A stretch of 36,052 nt of DNA from an uncultured Clostridia bacterium (lineage in GTDB: Bacteria > Bacillota > Clostridia > Christensenellales > Borkfalkiaceae), in assembly GCA_946055105.1 (NCBI GenBank), contig CAMGEK010000006.1:1-36052 (forward strand). Direction: 5' to 3'. Within the stretch, counting starts at the first letter, position 1. The number at the start of each line of letters is the position of its first letter. The notes beneath the pieces are model-generated. The model was given only the letters and a program-made list of their open reading frames with translations, was not told the origin of the DNA and searched no databases. Made by a program: the position numbers and the translations under genes. Positions 5,657-15,664 of this stretch are shown here, one piece after another.

Positions 5657-6925
5657 TTATGTATTTTCGATCATGAGACGAATGATTTCTTCGTCCGTTT
5701 CGCGCATGCCGACGCGCGCAAGATCCCCGACGTTTCGGATGGTTTTTTCCACGCCTTTGACCAAAATTCCGTCTCCGCCGTAAAACTGACTGCCGTTGCG
5801 GTACATTTCCCAACCGACGAGACCGGCGTCCACCGCGGAGGCGATTTTCGCGGCGCAACTCGATTTCGCGCCGTCGCAGATGAGCCCCGAATCGATGGCG
5901 AGCGCATTGACGACGGTATGTGCGATCTCGTCGTATTTTCCGCCGTGAAGATAACAGACGCCCGCGCCTGCGCCCGCACCCGCGCTGACGGCTCCGCAAT
6001 AAGCGGAAAGCCGCCCGATTCCCGTTTTCAGATGTATGGTGACGAGATCGGAGAGCAGAACGGAGCGAATCGTCTGTTCGCGAGTAGCGCCCATGCGCTT
6101 CGCATAGACGACGACGGGGAGAGACGCCGTGATGCCCTGGTTTCCGCTGCCCGAAACGATGACGACGGGAAGCGCGCAGCCGTTCATGCGCGCGTCGGAA
6201 CCCGCCGCCGCGGTTGCGCGGGCGAGGTTGTGCAAATCTTTCCCGAACGCTTGCAGAAGGACTTTTCCAACTCGCGCGCCGTAGTCGTTTTTCAATCCCT
6301 CTTCCGCAATCGCGGAATTATAGCGGATCTGACGGTCGATGAGTTCTTCGATTTCCGCAAGGTCGACGCAATCCGCAAATTCGACGATAGAACGGACGGA
6401 AAGCAGACTTCTGTCCGCGCCGCCCGTCTCCGCGACGGCGCGTCCGCTTTTCAGGAGCGTTCCGTTGCGTTCGACCGCGACGACGTTGGTGTGATGCCCT
6501 TCGATGCGGACGAACGCGCTGTCCTGATCGGAGAACACGCGCACGCCGACGTCGAACACGCATTCCGAAGTCGATTTTTTCACTTCAAAAGCGGCTGAGC
6601 GGAGAAATTCTCCGATCTTTTCCCGATCGCGGTCTGTCAGGCGGGAGAGTACTTCCAGACGGAGGGACGCGTCGCCCGCGACGATCCCTGCCGCGGCGGC
6701 GGCGCAAACGCCTTTCATGCCGCCCGTATTGGGCACGATTGCGCTTTTTACGTTTTTGAGAATGTTTCCGCTGACGGAGATCTCCACGCGCGAAGGCGTT
6801 TTCCCGAGCGTTTCGCGGGCAAGCGCGGCGGCGTACGCAAGCGAAATCGGCTCGGTACAGCCCATAGCGGGAAGCAGTTCTTCCCGTAAAATATTCAGAT
6901 AGGTGCGATAGACAAGTTCATCCAT
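5657..6925 (-). CDS. L-cysteine desulfidase / UPF0597 (serine dehydratase-alpha-like) family enzyme
   Basis: A 422-residue cytoplasmic protein of the UPF0597 family, whose studied members (CdsB of Methanocaldococcus, CyuA/YhaM of E. coli) are iron-sulfur L-cysteine desulfidases giving pyruvate, ammonia and sulfide. The key N-terminal GCTEPI motif is present (Cys23), with SGNILKNV, VPNTGG, GSGNQG, and the C-terminal cysteines in the DGAKSSCAAK segment expected for the cluster. ATG at 6925 is chosen because the family begins about 20 residues before GCTEP. A TTG at 6961 in frame is the -35 box and is unsuitable. There is no Shine-Dalgarno: the -10 box ends 7 nt upstream, suggesting a leaderless mRNA. 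It is alone on its strand. The substrate could be serine rather than cysteine. Confidence 0.88.
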   Translation of the reverse strand: MDELVYRTYLNILREELLPAMGCTEPISLAYAAALARETLGKTPSRVEISVSGNILKNVKSAIVPNTGGMKGVCAAAAAGIVAGDASLRLEVLSRLTDRDREKIGEFLRSAAFEVKKSTSECVFDVGVRVFSDQDSAFVRIEGHHTNVVAVERNGTLLKSGRAVAETGGADRSLLSVRSIVEFADCVDLAEIEELIDRQIRYNSAIAEEGLKNDYGARVGKVLLQAFGKDLHNLARATAAAGSDARMNGCALPVVIVSGSGNQGITASLPVVVYAKRMGATREQTIRSVLLSDLVTIHLKTGIGRLSAYCGAVSAGAGAGAGVCYLHGGKYDEIAHTVVNALAIDSGLICDGAKSSCAAKIASAVDAGLVGWEMYRNGSQFYGGDGILVKGVEKTIRNVGDLARVGMRETDEEIIRLMIENT

Positions 6926-6932
6926 AGCCGTA

Positions 6933-6961
6933 ATTATACACGTTTGGAAAAGCGATGTCAA
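6933..6961 (-). promoter_or_regulatory. Perfect-consensus sigma-A promoter placed for a leaderless mRNA
   Basis: On the minus strand: TTGACA (6961-6956), 17-nt spacer, TATAAT (6938-6933), then TACGGCT and the ATG of the desulfidase at 6925. The expected start point (about 7 nt after the -10) coincides with the start codon. Confidence 0.85.
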
Positions 6962-7017: not shown

Positions 7018-7046
7018 TTGACTTTCATAGTGTCCGCTGTTATAAT
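7018..7046 (+). promoter_or_regulatory. Sigma-A promoter of the CXXC/ferredoxin-TlpA operon
   Basis: TTGACT at 7018-7023, 17-nt spacer, TATAAT at 7041-7046; start near 7053, with GGGGAG ribosome site before ATG 7083. Confidence 0.88.
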
Positions 7047-7082: not shown

Positions 7083-7880
7083 ATGTCGGAAAAGAGAAAT
7101 AAGAGAATATGTTTCGCATACGACGTTTTTTTCGGCGCGTTCACCGTGGTTTTTGGCGCGCTTCTGATCGCGCAGGCGCTGAAACTGTTCTTTCAGTTTT
7201 CCGCGACCGAGGGCGCGATTTTTACGCGCGAACGCGTAGCGGACGCGCTTTCTCCGCTCGCGGTTCCCGGGGTGCTCTGGATCGTCGCGGCGATTGCGGC
7301 TTTCGTCTTGCGGGAGCTCTTTCCGTTCAAGCCGAGCGCCGTGCGCTTGGGGAACGGATACGCGCTCTACCGCTTAAAAAAACGCATGACCGAACGTCCG
7401 CAAGGGGAGCTGAGCGACGCGCGGAGAGCCGTTCTCCGCGAAGAAAGGATTCTTACCGTAATACGGCTGTTTTGTCTGGCGGTCTGCGCGGCGACGGCGG
7501 TTTATATGATCGTATATCTGTCGATGCCGTCGCATTTTCCCAAGACGGACGTCGTCGGGGAAGTGCGCGATCTCGTATTTCACGTTTTCCCGTGGATCGC
7601 GCTCTCGTTTGCGCTCTGTCTCGGCGCGGCGGCGTATTCCGAATATTCGGCAAAAAAACAGCTTCCCTTCGTCAGACAACTGACGGCGGGCGTCGCCGCC
7701 GAACGTTCTCCGAGCGGCGTTTTTGCGGCGTTGCAGGGAGCGCGGTTCCGTCTCGCCGTCCGGATTGCGATCGGCGTGCTGGGCGTGACGCTCGTGATCG
7801 TCGGAATTTGCAACGGAGACATGCGCGCGATGCTCATTAAGGCGATCAATATCTGTACGGAGTGTATCGGTCTTGGCTAA
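7083..7880 (+). CDS. Multi-pass membrane protein with C-terminal CD1871A-type CXXC motif
   Basis: A 265-residue membrane protein with about five hydrophobic segments (roughly residues 15-38, 62-80, 127-147, 168-185, 224-243). The last 25 residues, ending AINICTECIGLG (Cys258, Cys261), match what I recall of the short clostridial CD1871A-family CXXC proteins, which normally stand alone. Here that segment is joined to a larger membrane body whose remaining sequence I do not recognise. It has its own strong promoter and overlaps the next gene, a ferredoxin-TlpA fusion, by 8 nt, so the products are probably partners. A role passing electrons or a disulfide through the membrane is an inference from the CXXC pair and the neighbour. 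No signal peptide other than the first membrane segment. Confidence 0.8.
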   Translation: MSEKRNKRICFAYDVFFGAFTVVFGALLIAQALKLFFQFSATEGAIFTRERVADALSPLAVPGVLWIVAAIAAFVLRELFPFKPSAVRLGNGYALYRLKKRMTERPQGELSDARRAVLREERILTVIRLFCLAVCAATAVYMIVYLSMPSHFPKTDVVGEVRDLVFHVFPWIALSFALCLGAAAYSEYSAKKQLPFVRQLTAGVAAERSPSGVFAALQGARFRLAVRIAIGVLGVTLVIVGICNGDMRAMLIKAINICTECIGLG

Positions 7881-9549
7881 GGTGAAGAATTTTTTCAGAA
7901 AAATCGGGAAATGGTTTTCGGCGCACCGTCCCACGAAGCGACGGCTCATTCAGCTCTATGCCGCGCTTTTAACGAACGCCAACGTAAAGGGATTTGCGAC
8001 GGGGAAGATCTATCAGGGCGCGACGAAAAACCTCTGCGTGCCCGGTCTCAATTGCTATTCCTGTCCGGGCGCGATCGGAGCCTGCCCGCTCGGTTCGTTG
8101 CAGAACGCGTTGGCGGCGTCCTCGACGCGCGCGCCCGCCTATGTGTTCGGAATCATCGTCCTGTTCGGATTGCTCCTCGGCAGAACGATCTGCGGATTTC
8201 TCTGTCCGTTCGGGCTCATTCAGGAACTGCTCTATAAGATCAAGACGCCGAAAGTCAAGAAAAGCGTATTTACGCGCGTTTTGTCCTATTTCAAATACGT
8301 TCTGCTTGTTCTGCTGATCGCCATTCCGCTCATCTACGCCTCCGTGCCCGCGTTCTGTAAATTTATCTGTCCTGCGGGAACGCTGGAAGGCGCGATCGGT
8401 TTGCTGTCCAATCCGAACAACGCAGACTTTTTCGCCATGCTCGGCGGGTTGTTTACCTGGAAATTCGTCCTGCTCGTCGCGTTCATCGTCGCGTCCGTCT
8501 TTATCTTCCGATTCTTTTGCCGTTTTTTCTGTCCGCTCGGCGCGATTTACGGATTCTTCTGTAAAATCGCCCTGCTCGGCGTAAAACTCGATAAAAGCAA
8601 GTGTATCGATTGCGGACTTTGCCTGAAAACGTGTAAGATGGACGTAAAACGCGTCGGCGATCACGAATGTATCCAATGCGGGGAATGTCTTTCCGTTTGT
8701 CCGACCAAAGCGATTTCCTGGAAAGGCTCGTCGCTCTTCGTGCACGCGTCCTCGGCGGAAGCCGTGTTCGCGCCTGCGGAAGAACCCAGACCGCTCGGCG
8801 CTTTGCTCGCCGCTTCCGCGACCGAAGATCGGACCGACGCGCCCGATTCCGAATGTGCGGCTACGCTCGACGTTTCCGAAACCGTCGGCGCGACGTCGGG
8901 AGAATGCGTGCAAGAGCCCGTATTCGTCGATGCGGAGGAGGGGCGGGAAACGGTTGAAACGGACGCGCCGCGCAGAGGAAGAGCGTTTTGGTTGCGCCTT
9001 TGCGCGATCTGCTGTGCCGGAATCGTCCTCTTGGCGGCGCTCGTCTATTATAATTTTTTCAGCAGCGGCTGGGGCGGAGTCGTCCTCAAAGAAGGGGAAC
9101 GCTGTACGCCGTTTACGCTCGAACTCTATCAGACTGCGAACGAAAACACGGTGTTTTCAATCGAGGCGTCGAAAGGAAAGGTGACGGTCATCAATTTCTG
9201 GGAGACGACCTGCGATCCCTGCGTCGAGGAGCTGCCCTATTTTGAAAAGGTCAATCGGGAATACAACGGCGAGATCGTCATGGTCGCCGTTCACAGCACG
9301 CACGTGACGGAGCCCGTGCAGAAGTTCATCGATAAAGAAGATAGGGAAAAGAATAAAGAAAGTTGGTCGGAATATACGATGATGATGGCGGTCGATCGCG
9401 AAGACGTGAACGCGTATGAGATGCTCGGCGGAAAGGGAGCTTACCCGATTACGGTCATCCTCGATCAAGAAGGCGTGATTACCTGTATAAGACAGGGGAA
9501 AATGCCGGAGACGGAACTTCGTGCGGAAATTATCAAGGCGATGGGATAA
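7873..9549 (+). CDS. NapH-like membrane [4Fe-4S] protein fused to a TlpA-type thioredoxin domain
   Basis: A 558-residue fusion. Residues 1-235 resemble NapH-type membrane iron-sulfur proteins: Cys55/61/64/71 (CYSCPGAIGACPLGS), then several membrane segments with CPFG (111), CPAGT (166) and CPLG (220). Residues 244-276 hold two classical ferredoxin clusters, CxxCxxCxxxC (244/247/250/254 and 266/269/272/276, followed by P277). An acidic, low-complexity linker (about 285-368) leads to a further membrane helix (373-394) and an outward TlpA/thioredoxin domain with CDPC (447-450) and cis-Pro525. The apparent path is cytosolic electrons to clusters to exterior dithiol, analogous in role to CcdA/DsbD; this is inferred. 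TTG 7873 start overlaps the upstream gene; GTG 7882 is possible. Confidence 0.88.
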   Translation: MAKVKNFFRKIGKWFSAHRPTKRRLIQLYAALLTNANVKGFATGKIYQGATKNLCVPGLNCYSCPGAIGACPLGSLQNALAASSTRAPAYVFGIIVLFGLLLGRTICGFLCPFGLIQELLYKIKTPKVKKSVFTRVLSYFKYVLLVLLIAIPLIYASVPAFCKFICPAGTLEGAIGLLSNPNNADFFAMLGGLFTWKFVLLVAFIVASVFIFRFFCRFFCPLGAIYGFFCKIALLGVKLDKSKCIDCGLCLKTCKMDVKRVGDHECIQCGECLSVCPTKAISWKGSSLFVHASSAEAVFAPAEEPRPLGALLAASATEDRTDAPDSECAATLDVSETVGATSGECVQEPVFVDAEEGRETVETDAPRRGRAFWLRLCAICCAGIVLLAALVYYNFFSSGWGGVVLKEGERCTPFTLELYQTANENTVFSIEASKGKVTVINFWETTCDPCVEELPYFEKVNREYNGEIVMVAVHSTHVTEPVQKFIDKEDREKNKESWSEYTMMMAVDREDVNAYEMLGGKGAYPITVILDQEGVITCIRQGKMPETELRAEIIKAMG

Positions 9550-9914: not shown

Positions 9915-12317
9915 TTACAATTTTTCAATGAGGAGCAAAAATCTCTTGTTTTGCGACAGCTCTCCGTCTACGCCCAAACGCAGAGAGTACGTCGTGCTCG
10001 CCGCCGCCGTAAGTTCCAACGAAGCGACTGCGTTTCCGTCGTAAAAAACCCGTCCGTCCTGATCGCCGAAAACGGTGAAGCGGTACGTTCCCGCGCCGAC
10101 GGCTTTCCAATCGATCGAAACGCCCTGCGGATTGCTTGCCGTATCCAAAACGACTTCATAGACGCTTCCCGCAGGCGCGGCGCCGCGCAGCGACAGCGGA
10201 TCGCTTCCCGATAAAACCGCGTTTTCCGCAAACGGCGCGATGGTGAGGGGATAGGAAGATTCGCTTCCGGAAAGAGTAAAGACGTATGATTGCGAGACGG
10301 ACGTTTCGAGGTAGAGTACGCCGTTTCTGACGACGGAAGCTACGTTTTCCGTAACGCAGACGAGGGAGCAGGAGAGATTCTCAGGGGTGATCTGATACCA
10401 ACCCGTGCGCGCGGACGTAAAGCGAACGTACGCCGGCTCGGAGCCGTCCACGCCGACCGTCGATTTTCCGTTTTGCGCCAGATAGGGATCGGACTGCGTA
10501 CCCGAACCGAAGAGGGGAAGTCCGCTTTCGGGTTCGTAATAAACGCAGGCGAGCAGATAACGCAGTTCTTTTGCGCACAGATTTGCGCCGTACAATTTAT
10601 CGCCGAACGCGGTCAGAAAAGTTTTCAAATCTTCGTTCAGGGGATAAAGTCCGTCGGAATTGCAGACAGCCGCGTACCCGTTGACGACGTCCGCATAATG
10701 ATACATCGTGCTGTGGTATTCGTCGCTCGGATCGGGCATCCAGACGTCGTATGCGGACGTTCCGCGGAGTACGTCGCCGTTGGGATCGATCGGTTGCTTC
10801 TGCAACTCGAAAATGGAATATTCGCCGATTCGCGCGGAATTTACGCCTTTCAGATTGACGAATACGACGGGTTCGCCGTCGTCTGCGGCGTCATTCGCAT
10901 TGAGATCGAGCCGATAAAATCCCTCCTCGTCCTGCACGAGCGGCAGAGAACCGTCGAGCGGCATTTCCCGAATCGTCGCGTTTTCCGTTTGATAGGAATA
11001 TTCGACGGGAGTCCGGCTCGGCGATACGTTCCTTTCGTCCTGCGTATATTCGATCGCGTCGCCCGTCCTCGCAACGGTTACGGTGATTTCGCAGGGCGCG
11101 TCCGCCGTAAGATAAAAGTAATAGGTGCGCGAAGAATACAGTCTGCTGTCGATATTGACGCTCAATCCGCTTTCGCCGTTCTGCGTCTCTGCAATCAGCG
11201 AAGAGGGTATCCCGTTCGCGTCTTTTTGAACGAATCCCTCGGTTGCGTTGAATTGGACGAGCGAAACGGTCTTCGGATTGCCCGACCGTACGTCGAACGT
11301 GAGGGTATACGTTCCCGAAGCCGCCGCGCGCGACGCGGCGATTCTCCGATCGATTTCGGAGTAGTCGTCCGTCGTCTTGGGGGAAACGTAAGGACTGAAC
11401 GAAAAATAATAATACTGTTCCGACTTCCGGAACGTTGCGTCCAGAGAATAGGGCTGTCCCGTCACGGAAGCGGACGAATCGAGTTTGGTGCCCTCGTCGA
11501 TTGCAACGGTCGTCGGATCGTCCGACTCGTAGACGAGACGGTTTCCTTCGATCACGGTGCGTTCGTCGGAATATACGGGTTCCGTTCCCGACGCGTCGAC
11601 CGTCGTGCCGTTCGTCGCAAAGGAACCGCGCGCATAGGGCATGACGAAAATCTGATTGTCGGCGATATCGTTGGACAGGGCGACGACGACGGTTGCCTGT
11701 CGGAATGCGTTAAATGCGACTTCCGTCGGCAGAGCGTATCCTTTCGGAACGGACGAAATTTCCGCACGGTATTGCACGGACGCGTCGGGCTGAAGGGTGA
11801 AAACGATCAATCCCGATTCCGTTCCCGTCCTGATTTCACTGCGCGAAACTTCTGTGTTTCCCGAATAGCCGACGATCTGTGCCCGAACGTCCTTGACCGG
11901 AACGCCGAACTCGTCCACGACGGAGAGAAAATAAGACTTCGGCAAGACGACGATTTGCGTACTGCCGTCGAATTTCGTCACGACGAGATCGCCGTCCGAA
12001 TTAACCGTAACGGAAGCGACGCCGTCGTTTCCGCCGTTCGCCCGCACGTCCGTCGTCGTGCCGTTGATGACCCAGAATCCGTTCGCGTCGATCGAGATCG
12101 TGGGGGAGACGCCGTCCTTCCCTCTGATCGATTCCAGCCACTCGTCATAGGAGAGGGCGGGCGAGCCGGAGCTCTCCGCCGCGGCAACGTAGGAATCGTA
12201 GACGGCGCGAAAGGCGCTGTTCGTATCGTCCGACCGATCGCAGGCGCAGAACGCCGCGGCGCCGCCGAAGAGACACGCGGCGGTCAATAATCCGAAAATC
12301 GTCGTTTTCTTTTTCAT
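9915..12317 (-). CDS. Large surface lipoprotein, modular (800 aa)
   Basis: Unrecognised extracellular protein. It has an N-terminal signal peptide with candidate lipid-attachment cysteines near residues 24-26 (AAFCAC), a little unlike a strict lipobox. Then SYDEWLESIRGKDGVSPTI and a stretch of GFWVING/DGVASVTV/LVVTKFDGSTQ, the pattern often seen in clostridial surface proteins after collagen-like GxDG. Residues about 110-220 look like prealbumin-like beta domains (PVKDVRAQIVG...VPKGYALP). The centre has two jelly-roll-like segments. Around residues 550-660 lies a module (GLYPLNEDLKTFLTAFG ... LACVYYE ... GTQSDPYLAQNGKSTV ... RTGWYQI) related to one in the thioredoxin lipoprotein at 12929-15664. 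AGGAG with 8-nt spacing precedes the ATG. It lies behind a smaller lipoprotein gene, separated by a terminator-like hairpin. Substrate unknown. Confidence 0.8.
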   Translation of the reverse strand: MKKKTTIFGLLTAACLFGGAAAFCACDRSDDTNSAFRAVYDSYVAAAESSGSPALSYDEWLESIRGKDGVSPTISIDANGFWVINGTTTDVRANGGNDGVASVTVNSDGDLVVTKFDGSTQIVVLPKSYFLSVVDEFGVPVKDVRAQIVGYSGNTEVSRSEIRTGTESGLIVFTLQPDASVQYRAEISSVPKGYALPTEVAFNAFRQATVVVALSNDIADNQIFVMPYARGSFATNGTTVDASGTEPVYSDERTVIEGNRLVYESDDPTTVAIDEGTKLDSSASVTGQPYSLDATFRKSEQYYYFSFSPYVSPKTTDDYSEIDRRIAASRAAASGTYTLTFDVRSGNPKTVSLVQFNATEGFVQKDANGIPSSLIAETQNGESGLSVNIDSRLYSSRTYYFYLTADAPCEITVTVARTGDAIEYTQDERNVSPSRTPVEYSYQTENATIREMPLDGSLPLVQDEEGFYRLDLNANDAADDGEPVVFVNLKGVNSARIGEYSIFELQKQPIDPNGDVLRGTSAYDVWMPDPSDEYHSTMYHYADVVNGYAAVCNSDGLYPLNEDLKTFLTAFGDKLYGANLCAKELRYLLACVYYEPESGLPLFGSGTQSDPYLAQNGKSTVGVDGSEPAYVRFTSARTGWYQITPENLSCSLVCVTENVASVVRNGVLYLETSVSQSYVFTLSGSESSYPLTIAPFAENAVLSGSDPLSLRGAAPAGSVYEVVLDTASNPQGVSIDWKAVGAGTYRFTVFGDQDGRVFYDGNAVASLELTAAASTTYSLRLGVDGELSQNKRFLLLIEKL

Positions 12318-12401: not shown

Positions 12402-12797
12402 TTATTTCGCTTTGACGGTAATTACGATTTCTCCGGGCGCGGAGACCTGAGGAACCTCGTAAGTATAAGAATCGGACAGATAGAGAACGTGAACGTCGTA
12501 CTTTCCTTCGCCGAGCGATTTTTGAAGCGATTCCGCGTCGCAGCTCGCCTTGCCGTTCTCGTTGACCGCAACGGGAGTGGAGCACTTACCGTTGTCCGAA
12601 CTCAGGCACCATTGAATGAACACTTCTTTCTCCGTCAGCCCGCCGAGTCCGTCCGTCTTGCCGTTGACGGCGGTTCCGTCTTCGTATTGCAGTTTAACGG
12701 AATAGGCATTGTCGCCGCAGGCGGAAAGGAACGCGCCCGTGCAGACCGTCAGCGCCGCCGCAAGTACGAGCGCCATATTTTTCCATAATTTACGCAT
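12402..12797 (-). CDS. Small lipoprotein (131 aa), function unknown
   Basis: A signal peptide with a good lipobox, LSAC (Cys27), marks it as membrane-anchored and exported. The mature part (about 104 residues) reads like a single prealbumin/carboxypeptidase-regulatory type beta domain: LQYEDGTAVNGKTDGLGG ... GKYDVHVLYLSDSYTYEVP ... ITVKAK. It holds three more cysteines (in QWCLSSDNGKC and KASCDAES) that could form a disulfide; given the nearby thioredoxin-domain proteins it is a possible redox client, which is inference only. GGAGG with 5-nt spacing precedes ATG 12797 and a TTGAAT-17-TATAAT promoter lies upstream. Confidence 0.82.
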   Translation of the reverse strand: MRKLWKNMALVLAAALTVCTGAFLSACGDNAYSVKLQYEDGTAVNGKTDGLGGLTEKEVFIQWCLSSDNGKCSTPVAVNENGKASCDAESLQKSLGEGKYDVHVLYLSDSYTYEVPQVSAPGEIVITVKAK

Positions 12798-12928: not shown

Positions 12929-15664
12929 TTACGCCCCGAAGTGCTGATAATAATACGCCATCGACAGCCAGGCGTCTTCCGCCGCGTTCGCATAGTCGGA
13001 AAGTTTGTATTCGATCATCATATTGAGCATATCGACGAGTTCCTGCGTCGCTTCCGTCTTGCCGTACAGCGGATCGGTCGTCTCTTTGTTTTCGATCGAC
13101 CGCTGATAATATTCCGTAATTGCCGCCGTGTAATTGTCGCCGCCGAGATCGGTGAAGTCAAAATACCCGTTTTCGATCATCCAGAGGAGCGTATGTCCGT
13201 TCTGATCGAGGAAGTTTTCGAGCACGAAATCGATATAAATCGGCGAGCCGTAAGAATACGATTCGACCGCGCGGTAATAGCCCTCGAACGCGTCGTAGCC
13301 GACTTCGATCGCGTCATAGCGGCTTCCGATGATGTTCCCGTCGTCGTCGGTGATCCCGATGAACGCGCCGGAACCCGTCGAACACACGCGCAGGAGATCG
13401 TAGGATTCGCCCAGATAGTCGATCGTGAACGGGAACTCGCCCGTTATTCCGCTGCCGCACGCCAACAACAGATAGACCGTCTCTCCCGCCTCGAAATAGC
13501 GGTAGTATTGGAAATCGTTGAGATTCGCGTCCGTAAACTGTTCCTGCGTGATCATATCCTGCGCCTGACCGATCAAATTTCCGTTTTCGTCTTTCACGAA
13601 CAATTCGGGATCGGTCGCACCCGTCGCCTGAGAAAGGACGGCGTACACGCCCGCCTGCGGAGCGGTGAATCTGTAATACGTGCCGCGGTTCGTGGCGAGC
13701 GGATAGGGGACGATCGCCTGATTGCTTCCGACGCGCGCCTCATAACAGTTGAACGTCGCCATGCCTTTGATCGGATCGGTATACGCGAAGCAGTCGTCGT
13801 TCTCGTGCTCGGCGCCGAAGTGTTCAAAATAATAGCAAAGCTGTAACCAATCCTTCTCGGAATACGTTTGATTATGCCGCGAAGCGTACTCCTTGGTGAA
13901 ATCGATCAGCATTTCGCGCAATGCCTGCGTGACGGGCACGAGCCCGTTCGCGGAAAACATCTGATAGTAATAGAAGGAAAAAAGCGTTTCGGTGTAATCT
14001 TTTCCGTTCAGAAGGACGGTTCTGTTTCCGTCGTCGTCCGTGGTTGAAAATTCCCAGAACGAAATGTGGTAGGGCGCGTTATAGTAGGAGGTTTCGTCGG
14101 CGGTCTCCGTGGTTTCGCCGTCGCAGTGCTGCTCCGTCCATTTGGAAGGGTTGAGCAGATCCGCGTAAAGAAGTACGTTCGTCATGCTCCCGTCGCGCGT
14201 CAAGTGGTAATAGCCGTCGCTGAACGACAGAGCGATCGATTCGTTTCCGAGCTCCGTTTTGCGGTCGAAAGGCGCGGAATCGCTCGTCTTGGGCGTAACG
14301 GTCACGTTGCGGATTCCCGCAAATTCGTCGATCGTAACCGCGTCCGCCTGATCTTTATTGTAGAGGAAGGTGAGACGAACGGTTTTCGCGCGGTCCGCGA
14401 CGTCCAATTCGACGCGCACCCAGCCGCCCGAAGCGCCGCTGTACTCCCCGACGATTTTGCCGTCGTAAATCACGTACAGAACGTCGCAATATTGCTCGGT
14501 CGAAATTTTGTATTCAAACGAGAGCGAATCGGAAGGTTGCAGCGACACGTCGACGTGAACGGTCGCGAAAGAATAATCTTTACCGCAGTTGGACGCGGAA
14601 AGATACGCGCCGTCCGCGTCCGAGCCGAGGACAAAGGGCCAGGAATATTCGGCGTCGCCCGTCTCCGTTTCCGCGCGCCATACGCCGTTGAATCCGTCGT
14701 TCGTAATCGCCGCGTTGATCTCGTCGGAAGCGGGCATGACCTCCGTCGGCTTTTCCCGTTCGAGCGTTTCCGATTCTCCGCCGCCCGACGAGGTTTCGTC
14801 GTCCTTCTGGACGTAGGAATCGGAAGTGAACTGATCGAACAACGCCATCCAGGCGCTGACGTTGGGTTGCGCGCCGCTGTCCCGATAGGCGACGACGCCG
14901 TAACGGTCGATCATCACCGTCGTGGGGAAGCCCGTGACGTTGAATTTGTTCGTCAGTCCCGCATAGTCCGCGCCGAGGAAGAAAGATACGCCGTATTCCT
15001 GTTTGAACGATTTGATCGCGTTGACGGAATCCTGCGCGGAGAGCGCGACGATTTTGAGTTTGTTCTGATACGCTTCGTACGCCTCCTGCATTGCGGGGAT
15101 TTCCGATTTGCAGGGATTGCAGGCGATGTACCAGAAATTGAGAACGACCGCTTTGTTATCTTCCAGAAGCGCGGAGAGGGTATAGTTTTCGTTCGTCTCC
15201 GCGTCGGTGAACGCAAAATCGTGCATAACGCTGCCGACGGAATAGACCGTTCCCGAACTCGCGCTCGAAGAGATGACGCGCGACAGGAAGGAACAGTTGA
15301 CCGTCATTTCGTCCGCGGTCGTGCGATAGGGCGTTTCCGGTTGCAGATAGCCTTCCGGAAGATCGTCGAACTGTAATTCGTATTCGTCGGGTTCGAGATC
15401 GAACGTGACTTTCCCGTTTTTCGACACGCCCTGACGGACGGTCGCGCCGTTCTTTTTCGCGCTCACAAGCACGTTGTTCAGCTTCAATCCTCCCACAGAC
15501 GAGACGTTGACGACGTATTTTGAACCGTCGTCCGAGACTTCTCCCTCGGCGTCGGGGTTGATATAGTCGGGCCAGACTTCTCCGCAACCGACCAAAAGCG
15601 CCGAACCGAACGCAAGAATCGCCGTTGCGGTCAGCGAGATGATCGCTTTCGTCTTTTTCCTCAT
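12929..15664 (-). CDS. Modular lipoprotein with TlpA/redoxin domain (911 aa)
   Basis: Exported lipoprotein with lipobox LLVGC (Cys27). Domain order: a prealbumin-like domain (about 48-110, LDLEPDEYELQF-type), a TlpA/thioredoxin domain (about 140-280) with VVLNFWYIACNPC (Cys182, Cys185) and VTGFPTTVMIDRYG (cis-Pro247), a Ser/Gly/Glu linker, a jelly-roll carbohydrate-binding-like domain (about 320-440), then two related modules. The first is centred on GLVPVTQALREML ... DWLQLCYYFEHFGA, the second is C-terminal and ends AWLSMAYYYQHFGA exactly at the stop. A prepeptidase-like beta region with GTYYRFTAPQAGVYAVLS lies between them. GGGAGG precedes ATG 15664; consensus promoter and own terminator. 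Probably a cell-surface thiol reductase or oxidase acting on bound substrates; the plausible electron donor is the ferredoxin-TlpA protein at 7873-9549. Specificity unknown. Confidence 0.85.
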   Translation of the reverse strand: MRKKTKAIISLTATAILAFGSALLVGCGEVWPDYINPDAEGEVSDDGSKYVVNVSSVGGLKLNNVLVSAKKNGATVRQGVSKNGKVTFDLEPDEYELQFDDLPEGYLQPETPYRTTADEMTVNCSFLSRVISSSASSGTVYSVGSVMHDFAFTDAETNENYTLSALLEDNKAVVLNFWYIACNPCKSEIPAMQEAYEAYQNKLKIVALSAQDSVNAIKSFKQEYGVSFFLGADYAGLTNKFNVTGFPTTVMIDRYGVVAYRDSGAQPNVSAWMALFDQFTSDSYVQKDDETSSGGGESETLEREKPTEVMPASDEINAAITNDGFNGVWRAETETGDAEYSWPFVLGSDADGAYLSASNCGKDYSFATVHVDVSLQPSDSLSFEYKISTEQYCDVLYVIYDGKIVGEYSGASGGWVRVELDVADRAKTVRLTFLYNKDQADAVTIDEFAGIRNVTVTPKTSDSAPFDRKTELGNESIALSFSDGYYHLTRDGSMTNVLLYADLLNPSKWTEQHCDGETTETADETSYYNAPYHISFWEFSTTDDDGNRTVLLNGKDYTETLFSFYYYQMFSANGLVPVTQALREMLIDFTKEYASRHNQTYSEKDWLQLCYYFEHFGAEHENDDCFAYTDPIKGMATFNCYEARVGSNQAIVPYPLATNRGTYYRFTAPQAGVYAVLSQATGATDPELFVKDENGNLIGQAQDMITQEQFTDANLNDFQYYRYFEAGETVYLLLACGSGITGEFPFTIDYLGESYDLLRVCSTGSGAFIGITDDDGNIIGSRYDAIEVGYDAFEGYYRAVESYSYGSPIYIDFVLENFLDQNGHTLLWMIENGYFDFTDLGGDNYTAAITEYYQRSIENKETTDPLYGKTEATQELVDMLNMMIEYKLSDYANAAEDAWLSMAYYYQHFGA

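Follow-up and report, generated by a model that had tools for sequence, protein, structure and literature searches.

In a 36,052-nucleotide stretch of DNA from an uncultured Clostridia bacterium (contig CAMGEK010000006.1, positions 1-36,052, hereafter the window; the genome is 90.65% complete), two overlapping genes encode a membrane protein with a CXXC tail, P0001, and an iron-sulfur (Fe-S) membrane protein fused to a thioredoxin-type TlpA domain, P0002. Judging by their sequences, we think it rather probable that the pair forms a single membrane complex for the export of reducing power in the form of thiols, working as a ferredoxin-driven Fe-S conduit. A broader proposal, for which we see the case as evenly balanced, is that such pairs constitute a separate class of transmembrane thiol-reduction conduit, in which an Fe-S wire with one cluster per membrane face and a CXXC-tail converter would feed TlpA or seleno-TlpA domains, powered by ferredoxin and the membrane potential, in anaerobic Bacillota, many of which lack CcdA/DsbD. 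As read from sequence, the parts of the unit, their conserved linkage, its cysteine pattern and, by parity of helices, its topology are well founded. The unit is laid out as follows:

7018-7046, forward strand: sigma-70-like promoter site preceding both genes, TTGACT-17-TATAAT with TG (consensus match alone)
7083-7880, forward strand: P0001, five-helix membrane protein with CXXC tail, 265 amino acids, ATG start
7873-9549, forward strand: P0002, NapH-like [4Fe-4S] membrane protein fused to a TlpA/ResA-like domain, 558 amino acids, TTG start

The two frames overlap by 8 nucleotides, and a single promoter-like site precedes both. This site has 11 of 12 consensus matches plus the TG, in a scan of 3.1 kb that returned 5 sigma-70-like sites where 1.2 were expected.

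P0001 has five predicted helices followed by a short C-terminal helix ending ICTECIGLG, and its AlphaFold2 model has a mean predicted local distance difference test score (pLDDT) of 88. Two features mark its end:

7770-7877, forward strand: CD1871A-family tail, the last helix plus a short helix ending KAINICTECIGLG, predicted outside
7854-7865, forward strand: CTEC (CXXC) codons, residues 258-261, both cysteines invariant in 56 aligned sequences

Residues 230-265 match the 38-position tail model NF040920 (CD1871A_fam) above its cut-off (35.2 bits; cut-off 32), keeping the invariant K-A and C-x-x-C-x-G-x-G of that family, and in the alignment this tail is the sole strongly conserved part of the protein. 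The name of the model gives no function, and in other genomes of the phylum the tail belongs to an open frame of 47-125 residues, whereas here it ends a 265-residue, five-helix protein. P0001 gave no Pfam family match at E ≤ 0.1, no PDB sequence match at E ≤ 10 and no PDB fold match at E ≤ 0.001, leaving no candidate relative for its body in either database; the initial annotation had described a CD1871A-like CXXC tail on an unrecognised membrane body, and that description stands. Because the number of helices is odd, and given the distribution of charge, the tail is predicted to lie outside.

P0002 begins with a four-helix NapH-like part, continues through two ferredoxin motifs, an acidic linker and a further helix, and ends in a TlpA/ResA-like domain with a CDPC active site:

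8035-8085, forward strand: outer loop 1 with C55, C61, C64 and C71 (CVPGLNCYSCPGAIGAC); C61, C64 and C71 in 145/145 proteins
8191-8208, forward strand: inner CX3CP motif 1 (C107, C111), 145/145
8356-8373, forward strand: outer CX3CP motif (C162, C166); C166 in 145/145, C162 in 141/145
8518-8535, forward strand: inner CX3CP motif 2 (C216, C220), 145/145
8581-8742, forward strand: two [4Fe-4S] ferredoxin motifs with eight cysteines (244-276), predicted cytosolic
8743-8979, forward strand: acidic, mostly low-confidence linker, residues 291-369 (79 amino acids, 18 D/E versus 5 K/R)
8980-9072, forward strand: fifth helix, residues 370-400, carrying the chain outside (helix prediction, AlphaFold2 model)
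9085-9546, forward strand: TlpA/ResA-like domain, predicted extracellular (Redoxin match, fold matches)
9211-9222, forward strand: CDPC active site, C447 and C450, both invariant in 55 aligned sequences

Matches over cut-off to Fer4_5 (PF12801; 58.9 bits, cut-off 22, in three stretches), Fer4 (36.5 bits, cut-off 21.1) and Redoxin (PF08534; 54.1 bits, cut-off 26.6, CXXC present), together with the linker count, bear out the chain of domains first proposed for this protein (NapH-type clusters, two ferredoxin clusters, acidic linker, helix and thioredoxin domain). P0002 carries the pair of inner CX3CP motifs and, towards its C-terminal side, the two [4Fe-4S] motifs described for the NapH type (PMC5928378; this and the other papers cited here are drawn on from their accessible parts). 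Its scores nevertheless lie far below the cut-offs of the NapH/MauN family TIGR02163 (71.1 bits, cut-off 213.05) and of the NapH equivalog PRK09477, with which residues 72-284 align (51.7 bits, cut-off 234), and below that of the ResA model NF002854 (57.7 bits, cut-off 170). Neither P0001 nor P0002 matches PF02683, the DsbD_TM domain of CcdA/DsbD. The fold of the TlpA domain is closest to ResA-type proteins; the top matches are of the ResA and DsbE types, with Etrx also among them. The AlphaFold2 model of P0002 has a mean pLDDT of 74.6, and most of the linker falls below 50. A solved structure for the membrane part was sought among the 60 best of 138 PDB sequence matches to the Fe-S profile A1, and none was found there: in all of them the best stretch lies at profile position 209 of 286 or beyond, so that these matches sit around the ferredoxin part.

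The cysteine pattern was examined in an alignment of 145 Fe-S proteins (137 non-redundant at 95%), in which the family and named-collection sets partly overlap. Eight membrane-part cysteines are invariant throughout, C61, C64, C71 and C166 at the outer face and C107, C111, C216 and C220 at the inner; C55 is kept in 135. All eight ferredoxin cysteines are found in 144, and the one other row is gapped at this place. For comparison we took six further NapH-like proteins, three being weaker phylum matches and three chosen among the weaker matches of the family; each of them retains the inner and ferredoxin cysteines, with at most one of the outer six. On this sample, then, the outer set, which the initial annotation did not mention, appears to mark the CD1871A-linked group and not NapH-like proteins at large. 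The pattern points to one putative cluster site per membrane face, which modifies the earlier placement of the NapH-type clusters with the cytosol: that placement fits the inner site (C107/C111/C216/C220), while the outer site (C61/C64/C71/C166) would face the other way.

Topology follows from the TlpA domains that are not fused. In 63 unfused TlpA-domain frames, a set that includes the larger nearby TlpA lipoproteins and some truncated frames, 54 show a hydrophobic segment of the signal type before the domain and 34 a lipobox-like motif, which places the TlpA domain outside, as had been proposed. With a single helix (370-400) in between, the ferredoxin motifs are then inside. Tracing the chain back from there through three clear helices assigns C107/C111 and C216/C220 to the inside, and both C55-C71 and C162/C166 to the outside, regardless of helix 1. 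The positive-inside rule agrees in part: the loop carrying C107/C111 has a mean net charge of +3.1, and the one carrying C162/C166 is close to 0.

The module is widespread and conserved in many Bacillota, a point that the initial annotation did not hold. We searched a set of 249 genomes from the phylum and a set of 151 from the family, and kept the best 80 of at least 592 relatives in a named genome collection; by title, nearly all of these 80 loci come from Clostridia that are uncultured or were assembled from metagenomes, with animal gut or rumen as a frequent source; the sole isolate is Butyrivibrio sp. VCD2006 (L139, of the fused type). NF040920 was found in 33 of the 249 phylum genomes (26 over the family cut-off), and in all 33 an Fe-S partner is encoded at most 2.3 kb away and on the same strand. 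Profile A1 matched at E <1e-70 in 36, of which the remaining three (G036, G078 and G114) prove, on reading of the DNA, to carry a diverged tail immediately ahead of the Fe-S gene; three further genomes, matching at about 1e-31 to 1e-33, hold other NapH-like proteins. In the family set the Fe-S protein was present at E <1e-100 in 40 genomes and the tail, by model, in 39, all of which have the Fe-S partner; in the fortieth, G385, the tail was found by inspection (L058), so by these criteria no family genome has either gene alone. In 29 of 29 fetched family loci the tail gene and the Fe-S gene share a strand, the former lying upstream, and the same holds for all 80 kept loci, where it lies just upstream. 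Such conservation of the linked pair excludes chance, and the rare co-occurrence that would have counted against the initial annotation was not observed.

How the TlpA domain is attached varies. Among the 80 kept loci, 65 have a single TlpA domain fused to the Fe-S gene and 8 have two; a separate TlpA gene lies downstream in 5, and none was seen in 2 (L086, which runs off its contig, and L136). A further TlpA gene lies within the examined flank in 38. Tandem TlpA domains occur on the Fe-S proteins of G397 (L047), G330 (L052), G288 (L050), L063, L069, L105 and L125, among others. In other phylum genomes TlpA is in a neighbouring gene and the tail in its own short frame: among 30 fetched phylum loci (L003-L032, the window included; 3 of the 33 matches fall outside this fetch), a TlpA gene or domain stands beside the unit in 23, of which 13 were found directly (two of them weakly, E 6e-4 to 9e-4) and 10 through readthrough of a TGA, and none was seen within the examined flank in 7. 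In a tree of the 145 Fe-S proteins the fused types group with the downstream-TlpA types in a single branch of 110 rows, which has a Shimodaira-Hasegawa-like approximate likelihood ratio (SH-aLRT) support of 98. The tree was made by a quick method, with architecture labels assigned by hand, and since 47 of its 137 inner branches score below 80 and several rows are on long branches, it does not settle the order of fusion and splitting.

In ten relatives of the split type a single in-frame TGA replaces the first active-site cysteine of TlpA, giving UxxC (L008, L010, L011, L012, L015, L016, L018, L019, L020 and, from a wider fetch, L147), and this TGA probably encodes selenocysteine. In a check for selenocysteine insertion sequence (SECIS) elements, nine of the ten genes were found to share a hairpin-forming stretch, G(C/T)TGCAGTTGC(A/G)GC, at an equal distance after the TGA. 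The same stretch also codes for a conserved peptide, LQLQ or LQLR, fold energies after the TGA are mostly unremarkable against mononucleotide shuffles (z from -4.0 to +0.6), and the best z belongs to the one locus without the shared stretch. The selenocysteine assignment would thus depend mainly on the position of the TGA.

Based on these features we can present a proposal for the path of electrons. Cytosolic donors of the ferredoxin type would reduce the two ferredoxin clusters of P0002, from which electrons would pass to an inner-face cluster held by C107, C111, C216 and C220 and on to an outer-face cluster held by C61, C64, C71 and C166. The outer cluster could then reduce the CXXC pair on the P0001 tail at the outer surface, and either this dithiol or the outer cluster directly would reduce the CDPC of the tethered TlpA domain, which in turn may reduce disulfides or oxidised thiols outside the cell, such as those of TlpA-bearing lipoproteins nearby. 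An outer cluster with an adjacent dithiol might convert one-electron Fe-S chemistry to the two-electron chemistry of thiols. Ferredoxin:thioredoxin reductase, a soluble enzyme, performs such a conversion from cluster to dithiol; the chemistry proposed here is alike and the cysteine pattern fits, but the two are unrelated and the comparison is an analogy only. Outward transfer of electrons from the low-potential clusters to TlpA runs downhill and is aided by a membrane potential that is negative inside. That electrons pass from cytosolic Fe-S clusters to extracellular dithiols, as had been predicted for this locus, is supported by the findings above; the occupancy of the clusters, the order of the carriers, the outward direction, the CXXC tail as relay and the clients we infer.

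Several observations weigh against this proposal. Its weakest step is the crossing of the bilayer, where the gap between inner and outer sites may exceed electron-tunnelling distance. The model of P0002 is weak just at the outer cysteines (pLDDT <50 at 55-61 and 63-70), the hydrophobicity of helix 1 is low (mean 0.35), and the mildly positive first outer loop (+2.3) fits the positive-inside rule less well. DsbF proteins, which we take to be oxidants, appear in the same list of fold matches, so the fold alone does not fix the direction of flow. For other NapH-like CX3CP motifs the choice between cluster and disulfide was left open, with disulfides favoured (PMC5928378). Two second copies of the Fe-S gene, L145 (in G015) and L146 (in G134), have the outer cysteines and no CXXC tail within the fetched 4.5-5 kb, where a TlpA gene was also unmatched, and the link between outer cysteines and tail is hence not absolute. 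MenD matches below cut-off occur in 67 of the 151 family genomes, the strongest (175.5 bits) in G314, which has the module.

The distribution of CcdA bears on the same question. PF02683 was not found in the window's genome, which agrees with the earlier suggestion of a system without CcdA/DsbD, and in the family set it was found in 5 genomes, 4 over cut-off (3 of the 40 with the module and 2 of the 111 without). Across the phylum, in comparisons that ignore phylogeny, it is present in 13 of 33 genomes with CD1871A (G061 being marginal) versus 163 of 216 without (Fisher p 6e-5), an anticorrelation that weakens to 16 of 36 versus 160 of 213 (p 5e-4) when the three diverged-tail genomes are added. 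Those 13 module genomes carry CcdA too, and of the 111 family genomes in which the module is absent, 109 also show no CcdA. Thiol export is thus not essential in the Borkfalkiaceae, and strict replacement of CcdA as a general rule was rejected on the same count (109 of 151 with neither). The module often occurs where CcdA is missing, yet many relatives show neither. ResB was found in none of the 151 family genomes, and cytochrome c maturation was accordingly rejected as the purpose of the unit.

Other explanations have to be considered. The outer cysteines may be structural or redox disulfides that hold no cluster, with thiol-disulfide exchange alone crossing the membrane as in CcdA. Every protein that lacks C162 lacks C55 as well (135 CC, 6 PC, 4 PS and 0 CS among the 145 Fe-S proteins), as would be expected of a disulfide pair, and a disulfide was considered likelier for the CX3CP of RdhC (PMC5928378). 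The pair is, however, not kept in 10 of the 145, and the invariant outer residues number exactly four, the usual number of [4Fe-4S] ligands; we find this explanation doubtful. The unit might instead be driven by quinol, as proposed for NapH, its membrane part oxidising menaquinol and passing electrons out to TlpA while the ferredoxin clusters store or gate them. NapH is thought to oxidise quinol (PMC5928378), and both the NapH alignments of P0002 and the MenD-like match of G314 lean that way, but the two alignments lie far under their cut-offs. MenD exceeded its cut-off of 244.2 in none of the 151 family genomes, and the futalosine family, matched in 4, did so in 1, none of the 4 having the module. 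This scarcity favours a donor other than quinol, and even allowing that quinones could be scavenged, we regard a quinol donor as unlikely and give this scheme little credence.

An oxidative role, in which the unit would oxidise extracellular thiols, carry electrons inward and make disulfides, seems to us very improbable. Another route to disulfides could be wanted where the VKOR pathway was looked for and found in none of the 151 family genomes, and the DsbF proteins among the fold matches would suit it. Transfer from thiols to ferredoxin-type clusters against the membrane potential is, on established thermodynamics, uphill, and the apparent active-site selenocysteine of the ten relatives suits reduction. 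The top fold matches are of the ResA and DsbE types, and CcdA feeds Etrx and ResA, which act as reductants (PMC3914529). It is also improbable, if less so, that the unit is a redox sensor or assembly factor that reports the extracellular redox state or matures one surface protein, with no bulk export of electrons. NosR, named a transcriptional regulator in NCBIfam, matches weakly (33.6 bits, cut-off 1000), RdhC was first proposed as a transcriptional regulator (PMC5928378), and the large TlpA lipoprotein described below is a clustered neighbour in 20 of the 80 loci. Against this, neither P0001 nor P0002 has a regulator or kinase domain over cut-off, and the 8 loci with tandem TlpA domains and the 38 with a further TlpA gene nearby better suit delivery of electrons.

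The proposed Fe-S conduit has partial counterparts in known systems. As in CcdA-Etrx1/Etrx2-MsrAB2 of Streptococcus pneumoniae (PMC3914529) and in DsbD, reducing power would cross the membrane to a ResA-like extracellular thioredoxin domain, and as in CcdA-Etrx the gene for the membrane conduit is linked to one for a thioredoxin lipoprotein. Unlike them, the module has a conduit that appears to be Fe-S based and gives no PF02683 match, its presumed donor is a set of ferredoxin-type clusters and not cytosolic thioredoxin, and it adds the CXXC-tail membrane protein; the best reading is that it is analogous, not homologous, to CcdA/DsbD. With NapH, NosR and PceC (PMC8238504, PMC5928378) it shares the four-helix module with inner CX3CP motifs and a modular build with extracytosolic partners, and with NapH and NosR the two C-terminal [4Fe-4S] motifs. 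It differs from these systems in its invariant outer cysteines, in the CD1871A partner and in having a TlpA domain where those have a flavinylated or NapG partner.

In its accessible part, PMC8238504 treats NapH-like and DsbD systems apart and gives no CXXC-tail or TlpA version, and the word 'TlpA' occurs 0 times in its main text. A full-text literature search, judged by titles and the starts of abstracts and with most subscription papers and all preprints outside its coverage, listed no match describing a CD1871A/Fe-S/TlpA module; 'CD1871A' occurred in 0 papers, and 'CD1871', in its two matches, is an ATP-binding cassette (ABC) transporter permease gene and a conjugative-transposon locus. The accessible parts of the cited literature do not explain by what means extracellular thiols stay reduced in anaerobes that have neither CcdA nor DsbD. 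If our proposal is correct, a module common in gut and rumen bacteria would tie the low-potential ferredoxin pool directly to surface thiol chemistry, and Fe-S clusters would do work for which thiol exchange within the membrane is otherwise used. It would also give the CD1871A family a function and provide a genetic handle on extracellular redox in these bacteria.

Three genes downstream encode lipoproteins or a lipoprotein-like product:

9915-12317, reverse strand: large lipoprotein-like gene, with clustered relatives in 4/80 loci
12402-12797, reverse strand: 131-residue lipoprotein with a cysteine pair (QxC...C), the pair kept in 6/6 aligned copies, window included
12929-15664, reverse strand: 911-residue lipoprotein with its own TlpA domain (CNPC), with clustered relatives in 20/80 loci

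The largest, a conserved neighbour, is possibly a partner or client of the unit, and has in addition a weak SpaA-like match under cut-off; more generally, the products of the further TlpA genes in 38 of the 80 loci may be partners too. The small lipoprotein is possibly a disulfide-bearing thiol client. The gene at 9915-12317 is convergent with the pair, as is that at 12929-15664. On the other side of the pair, a perfect sigma-70 consensus (12/12) at 6933-6961 on the reverse strand falls on the called start of a serine-dehydratase-alpha-like gene (5657-6961), which therefore probably starts further in.

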